From Synechococcales cyanobacterium C42_A2020_086 (GTDB taxonomy: Bacteria > Cyanobacteriota > Cyanobacteriia > Elainellales > Elainellaceae): 64,000 bases of DNA. Below are positions 49,218 through 53,757 of this stretch, in pieces (positions within the stretch are counted from its first letter, which is position 1; every line of letters starts with the position of its first letter). The stretch spans positions 248,001 through 312,000 of the forward strand of contig JACYLU010000002.1 in the NCBI GenBank assembly GCA_015272325.1, read 5' to 3'. Under the pieces are notes generated by a model, which saw only the letters and a list, made by a program, of their open reading frames with translations, was not told where the DNA came from and ran no database searches. A program made the translations under genes and the position numbers.

Positions 49218-49257
49218 TGTTGGCAATGTTGACAATGTTGACAAGGGTTCTAGAATC
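49218..49257 (+). repeat. Iteron module 1: three 9-bp repeats plus box
   Basis: TGTTGGCAA, TGTTGACAA and TGTTGACAA in tandem (49218-49244), then four bases, then TCTAGAATC (49249-49257). Confidence 0.9.
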
Positions 49258-49340
49258 AGCCGACGGTCTAGGAGCCGTTTTCTGGAACCATTCACCAAAC
49301 GAGGAGCACCTGCCGCGCTTCCATCACTAACCGCCAAATC

Positions 49341-49371
49341 TGTTGACACTGTTGACTTTTGCTCTAGAATC
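49341..49371 (+). repeat. Iteron module 2: two 9-bp repeats plus box
   Basis: TGTTGACAC and TGTTGACTT, four bases, TCTAGAATC (49363-49371). Same geometry as module 1. Confidence 0.9.
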
Positions 49372-49415
49372 GTTTGACCGACCGCTAGCTGAAACCCACT
49401 GCGGCAACAGCTCAA

Positions 49416-49446
49416 TGTTGACAATGTTGCCAGCTTCTCTAGAATC
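49416..49446 (+). repeat. Iteron module 3: two 9-bp repeats plus box
   Basis: TGTTGACAA and TGTTGCCAG, four bases, TCTAGAATC (49438-49446). Same geometry. Confidence 0.9.
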
Positions 49447-49532
49447 CTGCGACTAAGCGAATCGTCCTCACCTGCAAACCCAGGAGAGTTCTGCCAAACT
49501 GGACAGTTTTGTAGACGTTGGATGGACAGATC

Positions 49533-49598
49533 TGTTGACAAGCCGCCTAGAACATCCAGACGCTGACTCTAGAATCGGCAAACGATCACTCTAGAATG
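49533..49598 (+). repeat. Iteron module 4: degenerate unit and three phased boxes
   Basis: TGTTGACAA, four bases, CCTAGAACA (49546); then TCTAGAATC (49568) and TCTAGAATG (49590), each 22 bp from the previous. Only the first box keeps a 9-bp repeat before it. Confidence 0.75.
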
Positions 49599-49666
49599 GC
49601 AAAACTACAGATTTTTGCAACGCAGTTAGAACAACCAGTGTCGCTATCGTTGACGCGCTAAAGATC

Positions 49667-49868: not shown

Positions 49869-51659
49869 ATGGCGAAACTCGCACCGCCGATTGACCGAAC
49901 AAGCAGGTCATCGGTAGAAGCCCATCTTAATTTTCGAGCTGTCGCTGAGCCGGATGCGTTTCTAGCCCTGTTTCCCCACCGATTTGACTATATCTACGCA
50001 CCGCATCCTGAACCCGGTCACCGCCCCCAGTGGCAAACCGAAAGCCGCCACCCCCTCAGCGATCGCCTAATCCAGCAAGGGCAGTATTTGTTTGGTGTTC
50101 GCTTCGGACCGAAAACAAAGTACTGCCTCCTCGATATCGACGTCCACAGCGCCTACCATCCACAGCAGGATCCGCTAGCGATTGCCCGAATTGTGGCGGC
50201 TCTGGAACCGCTCGGTCTCGTCACCTACGTTGGCTGCACTAGCTCTTACTCGCAAGGACTACACCTCTACTTCCCCTTTGCCCACGCCCAAAGCTCCTGG
50301 GAACTGGCTCTTGCTGTTGCTACATTACTCGACAATGCTGGTTTCAAACGGCTACCAGGGCAGCTAGAGGTGTTTCCCAATCCCAAACCCTACACTGTGG
50401 AAGGTAAGCCCAGCCTGTTCAATGCCCACCGACTGCCGTTGCAAACAGGGTCCTATCTGGTGAACCAGGACTTTCAGCCAATCTGGAGCAGCCCGCAAAT
50501 CTTTCAGCAGCAGTGGCAGCAGGCCTCCGCTCGCAACGATCTCAACCCATCCACTCTCAAGCAAATCGTCAAGCAGGCAAAGCGTTGCTGCTATCGCATC
50601 TCAGGCAAAGCAGATAAATTTATCAACGACCTAAATGCCGAAATTGAACCAGGCTGGACCGGACCAGGACAAACAAACTATTTGCTGGGACGAATCACGA
50701 TGCGAGCCTACATTTTTCACCATCTCATCGAAGGTGGACCCCCCCTGACTGGGCAAGCATTGGTCAATCAAATCGTCCAAACGGCTCGCTCGCTGCCAGG
50801 CTACTATGACTGGTGTCGTCATACCCATGAGATTGAGCAACGCGCTGAGGAATGGGCCCGCTGCATTGAACAAAGTCACTATTTCCACTATGGAACAACT
50901 CAAGGCAAATACAAAACTAAACTGGTATTAACACCAGAGTTAGAACCTGCTGCAACACATTTGCCAAGCTGGAACCAGCAGCAGGCAGCGTCAGCACGAG
51001 AACGAATTAAATACGCAATTGCCGATCTACTAGAAAAAGGCTGCCTACCAAGCCAGACAACCGCACGATTCAAGCGCCTAACCGAATATGGCATTGGCGG
51101 TGGTTCTCTCTATCGTCATCGGGATCTGTGGCATCCGGATCACCTAGCTCCTTCCGAAACTCAGACTGATGGCGCAAACTCTACAAGCTTATTCTCTAGC
51201 CCAGGCGGTAATCCCGCTCCTAATACAGTATTCAACGATCGATTGCTCGCACCAGAGGATACAGCAGGCGGTAATGGCTTGGTATTGGAGAGTTTGACGA
51301 CCGTTTTGCCAACTGTTGAGCTGTCGATGCCGATTGTTCAACCGCAAACGGCTGTTTCAAGCGCTTGCGAAACTGACGTTACTAGCTTGGTAGTGGCGCA
51401 AGCAGATCCGACCTGTCTAGAGGTTGAGTCTGTGATAGTTGAGTCTGTGATAGTCGAATCTGTTACAGTTCAATCTACAACCGAGGCAGCTCAACGGTTT
51501 GGACAGACTGTGTGGACTACGCAGCAGGCAGTAGGCACTCCACCGTTACGATGCTGGGTTACATGGGCTGGAATCTGTGGTTTGATAGCGTTCATATCCG
51601 GATCTGCTCTCGATGATTTCTACCGGACTATGAGGAATAGTGTTCCATGGCGCAACTAA
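49869..51659 (+). CDS. Archaeo-eukaryotic-type primase-like replication protein
   Basis: 596 residues. The N-terminal about 180 residues show the three metal/nucleotide motifs of AEP primases. Motif I is the DxD pair Asp89/Asp91 (KYCLLDIDVHS). Motif II is SxH-like, SYSQGLH, with His132. Motif III is EVFPNPKPY (167-175), like the EIFPKQ of TOTE-type primases. An alpha-helical part (about 225-340) and a helix-turn-helix-like stretch (about 376-423) follow. A low-complexity linker has four near-identical 5-residue repeats (VESVI). A hydrophobic C-terminal segment ends it. No helicase is fused. Motif assignment is by eye; priming activity is inference. It overlaps the next gene by 13 bp. Confidence 0.65.
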   Translation: MAKLAPPIDRTSRSSVEAHLNFRAVAEPDAFLALFPHRFDYIYAPHPEPGHRPQWQTESRHPLSDRLIQQGQYLFGVRFGPKTKYCLLDIDVHSAYHPQQDPLAIARIVAALEPLGLVTYVGCTSSYSQGLHLYFPFAHAQSSWELALAVATLLDNAGFKRLPGQLEVFPNPKPYTVEGKPSLFNAHRLPLQTGSYLVNQDFQPIWSSPQIFQQQWQQASARNDLNPSTLKQIVKQAKRCCYRISGKADKFINDLNAEIEPGWTGPGQTNYLLGRITMRAYIFHHLIEGGPPLTGQALVNQIVQTARSLPGYYDWCRHTHEIEQRAEEWARCIEQSHYFHYGTTQGKYKTKLVLTPELEPAATHLPSWNQQQAASARERIKYAIADLLEKGCLPSQTTARFKRLTEYGIGGGSLYRHRDLWHPDHLAPSETQTDGANSTSLFSSPGGNPAPNTVFNDRLLAPEDTAGGNGLVLESLTTVLPTVELSMPIVQPQTAVSSACETDVTSLVVAQADPTCLEVESVIVESVIVESVTVQSTTEAAQRFGQTVWTTQQAVGTPPLRCWVTWAGICGLIAFISGSALDDFYRTMRNSVPWRN

Positions 51660-52927: not shown

Positions 52928-53270
52928 TGCGACCTGATGCAAATAGTGAACGCAACTGATAACGCTTAGGCTACTGTCCCTACCAAGATATGAAGTATGA
53001 AACCGCATAACGACCAACACTCACCGGATGCAGATAGCTTTTGAAACTCAACCAGCTTTCGACATTCCAGTACAGCAACTTGTCAGCTCTGGCGCTTCTC
53101 CCCAGACTTCTACTCCAGACTTCTACTGATGTTGTCTAGCTTGACCAACTTTTAGCCATGCGAAGATTTGTTGTGGAGTCAGTGTCAACTAGTCCGCAAG
53201 ACCTTGTCCTTTGCAAAATCCTCGGAGAATCGCATTAGGGCAATTTGGTACTTTATCCATCATTACAATG
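52928..53270. other. Gene-free stretch, no feature
   Basis: About 340 bp without support for any gene, at the start of the decayed transposon zone. Confidence 0.4.
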
Positions 53271-53470
53271 CATCATTACTTCTTTAGCACCACTCGCCAG
53301 CGAACTCACGCTTGAACCACTTGCACTGCTGCAAACCCTCCTGCCCTCTGCTGCCAACACTGGAAGACCTCGCAGCCTCAACCTGATGTCAGTGGTGCAA
53401 AGCATCCTCTACCAGCTCGTCACCGGTTGCGCTTGGCGACTGTTGCCCAGCGAGTGCCTCCCTCAAATTT
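53270..53470 (+). pseudogene. IS5-like (DUF4096) transposase N-terminal fragment
   Basis: A frame carrying LQTLLPSAANTGRPRSLNLMSVVQ and YQLVTGCAWRLLPSECLPQ matches the N-terminal DUF4096 domain of IS5/IS4-type transposases. After about 53470 the frame becomes unrelated hydrophobic sequence, so it is a truncated remnant. Boundaries are approximate. Confidence 0.65.
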
Positions 53471-53592
53471 ATTTCTTTGCTCTTTGCGTGTTCTTTTTTG
53501 TTATTTGTCTCATCTCCAATCTTATCCTCATACTGCTTCTCCAACAGCTTTTGCACAATTTGTTTGCTGTCCAAGAAGGAGGTGGCTGTGGT

Positions 53593-53757
53593 TCATACTA
53601 GACTTGACTGCGGAGGTAGTTCAACACCTTGTTCGTCCTCACTGTGAGATACACCCCGTTCAAAGATGCTGGGGGCTTGCTCCAAAAATTCTTTGCGCCA
53701 GCGGTTTAAGACGTTCGGGTTCAGCTTGTGGGTTCGACAAAGATTACTCGATGTTAG
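53593..53757 (-). pseudogene. IS3-type OrfA remnant
   Basis: A minus-strand frame reads SSNLCRTHKLNPNVLNRWRKEF, then LEQAPSIFERGVS, matching the helix-turn-helix half of IS3-family OrfA. It begins after a stop and has no start codon, so it is a fragment. Confidence 0.6.

Follow-up and report, generated by a model that had tools for sequence, protein, structure and literature searches.

The main elements from which the locus described here is built, namely iteron control, cyanobacterial Rep proteins and plasmid primase-polymerases, are all of kinds already known. In RSF1010, the RepB' primase operates together with a separate iteron-binding protein, RepC. For the large plasmids of cyanobacteria, information on replication proteins is limited. 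Researchers have shown experimentally that CyRepA proteins support replication in cyanobacteria (PMC10079941, PMC9978351), whereas CyRepX is helicase-like, and homologs of CyRepA, whose function there was not validated, are carried on the chromosomes of 80 of 145 cyanobacteria (PMC10899382). We found no mention of iterons in the CyRepA and CyRepX papers within the open-licence literature. The array described below, from the Synechococcales cyanobacterium C42_A2020_086, resembles these systems in several respects, although the protein family presumed to read it and the mix-and-match arrangement in which it occurs appear to be new.

The array lies in a 64,000-nucleotide stretch of contig JACYLU010000002.1 (hereafter the window), in a 752-bp gap separating two divergent genes, of which the leftward codes for a 654-aa protein, termed the partner, and the rightward for a 596-aa protein (Table 1). 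It consists of direct repeats in one orientation and with the regular, helically phased spacing of iteron origins. The initial annotation had described modules composed of 9-bp repeats (heads), a fixed 4-nt gap and a second motif (the box), with the box of the fourth module degraded; this description is right in detail and its coordinates stand. The fixed gap is confirmed as well, but it forms only part of the pattern, as the annotation had missed a tail, a 22-bp phasing and a constant relation between two hexamers. The tails (CGAC, TGAC, CGAC, AGAC, AAAC and AAAC in order) begin 12 bases from the box start at all six boxes, and in modules 1–3 the TTGACA of the upstream head stands exactly 16 bp from TAGAAT.

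Table 1. Elements of the array and the genes on either side of it (positions within the window).
Feature	Position	Strand	Description	Basis
Module 1	49218..49264	+	heads TGTTGGCAA 49218-49226, TGTTGACAA 49227-49235, TGTTGACAA 49236-49244; N4 GGGT; box TCTAGAATC 49249-49257; tail CGAC 49261-49264	sequence, exact pattern match
Module 2	49341..49378	+	heads TGTTGACAC 49341, TGTTGACTT 49350; N4 TTGC; box TCTAGAATC 49363-49371; tail TGAC	sequence, pattern search
Module 3	49416..49453	+	heads TGTTGACAA 49416, TGTTGCCAG 49425; N4 CTTC; box TCTAGAATC 49438-49446; tail CGAC	sequence, pattern search
Module 4	49533..49561	+	single head TGTTGACAA 49533; N4 GCCG; degraded box CCTAGAACA 49546-49554; tail AGAC retained	sequence, pattern search
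Two headless boxes	49568..49605	+	TCTAGAATC 49568, TCTAGAATG 49590; step 22 bp; tail AAAC on each	sequence
Head-like element CGTTGACGCGCT	49648..49659	+	between array and primase-polymerase gene	similar form in 3 related loci (L112, L130, L246)
Primase-polymerase, 596 aa	49869..51659	+	predicted archaeo-eukaryotic primase fold; candidate plasmid-type replication enzyme	motifs, Foldseek, plasmid relatives
Partner gene, 654 aa	47152..49116	-	predicted RctB-like core and C-terminal XRE helix-turn-helix (~600-650); presumed iteron reader	Pfam HTH_3, model, Foldseek, hhalign, tree versus array type

The initial annotation had also asked whether the pattern is frequent elsewhere in the genome or absent from homologous intergenic regions, and it is neither. 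Searched with up to three mismatches, the 22-mer TGTTGACAAN4TCTAGAATC matched the window four times, always within the array, where 0.05 matches are expected by chance and where none of 100 shuffles reached four. With a slightly looser pattern and all 5.93 Mb of the genome, modules 1–3 came out as the top three matches (0–1 mismatch); the remaining sites carried at least two mismatches and were scattered (143 sites at three mismatches or fewer versus 70 for a reversed control), and this pattern search revealed no second array. The same genome harbors a second copy of the primase-polymerase (L098, contig C5:80411-81634), which is accompanied by a different repeat array of the ATAACTCCGGCGGC type.

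In related genomes, the array is kept between the same two divergent genes, and its grammar is conserved. Among 92 boxes from 14 window-type loci, 41 have a TTG[AC]C head that starts 11 bp upstream and 38 have one that starts 20 bp upstream, other offsets being few apart from 12 bp (10 boxes) and 33 bp (6 boxes), the latter equal to 22 + 11. The AC of the tail (N4-NNAC) occupies the same position in 92% of the boxes, and the commonest box-to-box distances across the 14 loci are 22 bp (14 cases) and 42–44 bp (16 cases). From these offsets, tails and spacings, the module can be written as head, head, N4, box, N4, tail, with a phase of two helical turns. Arrays in the family reach about 10 phased modules across as much as 1 kb. 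Another genome has the same arrangement on a contig of 4.26 Mb, and the array and enzyme occur in a closed 5.8-Mb genome; no conserved flanking genes were found across the compared loci.

As TTGACA also matches a -35 hexamer, a promoter array had been named as the main alternative, in which tandem sigma-70-type promoters, one TTGACA-16-TAGAAT pair per module, would drive the right-hand gene. The required geometry is indeed present in the window clade, being exact in modules 1–3 and matched by the 20-bp offset in 38 of the 92 boxes, but the alternative is weakened by the other clades: the -35/-10 hexamers are kept only in the window clade rather than family-wide, and sister clades build the same architecture from boxes that do not resemble promoters, such as TGAGACAA...CTCCGTATC. 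Furthermore, TTGCCA and TAGGAT variants are frequent among related arrays, many boxes are preceded by a single head, or by no head at all, and display the 22-bp phasing instead, and promoters would leave the tail and the second head without a role. Across the family this explanation fails, and we regard it as highly improbable, albeit conceivable for the window clade.

By its motifs and predicted fold, the 596-aa protein is a primase-polymerase, presumably with the corresponding activity. Its alignment conserves the catalytic pattern of archaeo-eukaryotic primases, i.e. DxD (LDID), SxxxGxH (SSYSxGLH) and ExFPN, with D89, D91, S126, H132, E167, F169 and P170 as the conserved residues. An AlphaFold model (mean pLDDT 74; 252 residues at 90 or above) matched six PDB chains of the Prim-Pol fold at E < 1e-5 by Foldseek, among them a CRISPR-associated Prim-Pol (E 2e-6), and gave weaker matches to the cyanophage S-2L PrimPol and RSF1010 RepB'. 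Pfam Prim-Pol matches within the enzyme family are weak and confined to 5 of 59 members; the 596-aa protein itself has no Pfam match, and so no DUF3854, and no credible NCBIfam match. Plasmid records with a relative of the enzyme number 66; one of them is a 13-kb plasmid of Leptolyngbya boryana, which is otherwise annotated with parA, parB, one unknown gene and genes of insertion sequences. The window enzyme lacks a C-terminal SGDPIL segment common among its relatives, and no helicase gene was seen in the module.

The enzyme gene overlaps the next gene, coding for a GHL10 glycosyl hydrolase-like protein, by 13 nt (51647-51659), and farther downstream an ORF (53245-53601) resembles by eye the N-terminus of an insertion-sequence transposase and is possibly a remnant. 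The window sits in a 472-kb contig, and two genes close to the locus are, judging from their translations, presumably hisB and hemL, for which reasons the locus is taken to be chromosomal; the dnaA gene of this genome is on another contig.

Repeats also accompany the wider enzyme family. At the 80 named loci that a scan of genome contigs yielded, the most recurrent 9-mer (one mismatch allowed) within 1.2 kb ahead of the enzyme gene was present in at least seven copies at 43 loci and in at least six at 54, while downstream controls reached six copies in five loci and never exceeded that number, and shuffles had a maximum of six. The sequences of the arrays vary by locus and include TGAGACAA with CTCCGTATC and the tail TCAC, TGTACTCA with AATAGC, GGTCACA, TGATTACA, and CTGTAACTCCGGCGTATG or CTATCACTCCGGCGTAT; loci of this last type carry a different divergent partner, a protein of 389 aa. 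Exact TGTTGAC/TCTAGAAT arrays are absent from the plasmid relatives of the enzyme because the partner types there differ.

The array type is strictly linked to the partner family and not to the enzyme. When types were assigned from the array alone, array type equaled partner type in all 53 classifiable partnered loci. The window-type partner is found with the TGTTGACA/TCTAGAAT array in 11 of 11 loci, other XRE subfamilies agree in 6, 5 and 5 loci (one subfamily having two array types according to sub-branch), and the unrelated 389-aa partner is found with the CTGTAAC/CTATCAC array type in 26 of 26. This 389-aa protein, encoded at L122:4100-5266 and at 26 other loci, and always with the CTGTAACTCC/GCGTAT array type where classifiable, has no similarity to the 654-aa family and no Pfam, NCBIfam, PHROG or PDB match. 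Fitting the array types to the partner tree takes four changes, the fewest possible, whereas the primase tree for the same 26 loci takes 10 (shuffled mean 14.3), and sister primases are found with different partners and arrays (L121/L122, which reside in one genome, L112/L119 and L151/L153). The primase-polymerase was rejected as the reader of the array, since its tree does not follow the array type. One partner gene, an orphan (L087), is not preceded by an array, and at L096 an enzyme gene and array stand without an adjoining partner, the partner gene being located elsewhere in that genome. That array type tracks the divergent partner without exception supports the earlier guess that the divergent helix-turn-helix protein reads the array, and the simplest account of these sequences is that the partner would do so while exchange or conversion of the enzyme gene has taken place from module to module.

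Several loci are in keeping with such exchanges. On a L. boryana plasmid (L246), the window-type partner and the same array stand opposite a 1068-aa protein that scores 341 bits against the NCBIfam model CyRepA1 (NF042913; cut-off 200), and at another locus (L089) they stand opposite a different DUF3854 protein. On a Nostoc plasmid, a PriCT-2 protein accompanies a related partner and TCTAGAATCCCCGGACAAAAAC units, of which there are three with a 22-bp step, and an Allocoleopsis plasmid combines the 389-aa partner with a DUF3987 protein and six copies of CGTGACTCCGGCGTAT. The CyRepA1, DUF3854, PriCT-2 and DUF3987 neighbors connect such arrays with replication modules at large.

The partner has a model with a mean pLDDT of 77, whose best PDB match by Foldseek is a moderate one to domains 2–3 of RctB (E 4.9e-4, probability 1.00, TM-score 0.44 over the target). 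RctB is the initiator of Vibrio cholerae chromosome II, and initiators of its type and of the RepE-pi type have a paired winged-helix fold. Profile searches gave no sequence-level match of the partner to RctB or to any known initiator family. Over residues 208-652, in contrast, hhalign aligned the partner with CnfR-like 4Fe-4S/XRE proteins at E 4.9e-77. The CnfR-like set was drawn from cyanobacterial genomes, the present genome included (L241-L245), and the label was given by architecture (CnfR/PatB as in PMC8510180), not on the basis of a nif locus. CnfR, with 4Fe-4S clusters at its N-terminus, is an activator of nif promoters, thought to work through sites lying 300-600 bp ahead of nifB (PMC8510180); no published sequences of its binding sites were found in the open-licence literature. 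Domain and profile searches detected no N-terminal 4Fe-4S ferredoxin domain in the 654-aa partner. By sequence comparison, the partner and the CnfR-like proteins are one family, with the predicted core and C-terminal XRE domain in common, which suggests shared ancestry between a putative replication-linked protein and an activator of nitrogen fixation. Our search of open-licence papers found no earlier description of the partner family.

Because these better-known kin are transcription activators, the main rival reading is that the array serves solely as a transcriptional operator, through which the CnfR-like 654-aa regulator controls the two divergent genes, with replication initiated elsewhere or not at all. 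The placement of the array between divergent genes is in keeping with this idea, as are the family relationship itself and a lack of DnaA boxes, but arrays of up to some 10 phased modules over as much as 1 kb exceed the needs of an operator, such arrays adjoin four types of replication enzyme (primase-polymerase, CyRepA1/DUF3854, PriCT-2 and DUF3987), and the partner has a predicted RctB-like core. An operator without a replication function is thus unlikely.

We consider it probable instead that the array represents the compound iterons of a plasmid-type replication module residing in a cyanobacterial chromosome, with the partner as reader and the enzyme as an exchangeable component. The initial annotation had likewise favored iterons or a Rep operator, and its reading gains support from the plasmid-type primase-polymerase and from the occurrence of the same array beside CyRepA1-type (DUF3854) Rep genes. 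We infer that the 654-aa protein would bind each module by two surfaces, the first, probably the XRE domain, reading the TGTTGACA heads and the second, probably the RctB-like core, reading TCTAGAATC and the NNAC tail, with both contacts on the same face of the helix in 22-bp steps. Once bound, the protein would control both divergent genes, its own included, and would bring in or license the enzyme that primes synthesis close to the array. At this locus that enzyme would be the primase-polymerase, whereas the same partner and array elsewhere would work with a CyRepA1-type Rep.

Any origin at the array is probably not of the DnaA-box kind, as DnaA boxes are absent from 13 of 14 intergenic regions (DnaA-box-like sites are present in the remaining one) and as the local AT-rich stretches present in the 14 regions occupy no constant place. 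In the examined part of the contig (C30), the cumulative GC skew has its minimum at about 302 kb (window position about 54000), a few kb from the array, at a nonsignificant block-permutation p of 0.14, and the closed genome (G002), sampled at 20 points, has no clear polarity. An active chromosomal origin is not claimed from GC skew on these grounds. The module might also be a relic, i.e. an integrated plasmid replication module now devoid of function whose array persists by descent. Such a reading concerns present activity and can be compatible with the original purpose of the array proposed above. The lack of flanking genes in common with related loci, the one degraded box and the missing C-terminal segment of the window enzyme are consistent with decay; both reading frames are nevertheless intact, the catalytic motifs are kept, the spacing is perfect in three modules, and the 4.26-Mb contig and the closed 5.8-Mb genome retain the arrangement and the array with its enzyme, respectively. 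We judge present-day loss of function to be quite unlikely.

A broader proposal, offered tentatively and with doubt, is that an undescribed initiator family, built of an RctB-like core and an XRE domain and akin to CnfR, might define a class of cyanobacterial replicons with their own compound iterons and free combination with unrelated enzymes, the chromosomal copies acting as extra DnaA-independent origins. The partner-iteron rule would provide a route to candidate origins by sequence, to the prediction of replicon compatibility and to orthogonal vectors. The putative common ancestry of the partner and CnfR-like proteins also invites the question of which of the two gave rise to the other, a replication protein or a regulator of nitrogen fixation.

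Among known systems, the iteron replicons of R6K (pi), F (RepE) and RK2 (TrfA) and the ori2/RctB system of Vibrio resemble the present locus in having direct repeats about two helical turns apart that adjoin the gene for a DNA-binding protein, in the present case one whose predicted fold moderately resembles that of an initiator. The modules here differ in that heads, box and tail are distinct elements held at set distances, and the locus further departs from those systems in the extra C-terminal XRE domain of its 654-aa partner and in the general absence of DnaA boxes. CnfR/PatB belongs to the same family as the partner over residues 208-652, yet the partner is without the N-terminal 4Fe-4S clusters and is linked to replication genes. 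Of the solved structures, the CRISPR-associated Prim-Pol (CAPP) of Marinitoga comes nearest in fold to the N-terminal domain of the 596-aa protein, which differs in its C-terminal region and whose adjacent genes are not Cas genes. With CyRepA1/CyRepA2 (DUF3854), the connection is through the L. boryana plasmid on which the same partner and array face a CyRepA1-family gene, whereas the window enzyme is an unrelated primase-polymerase. Finally, although no helicase gene was seen in the window module, its division of labor would be like that of RepB' and RepC in RSF1010, in that a primase of related fold (RepB' being a weak fold match) is paired with a separate, here presumed, iteron-binding protein.
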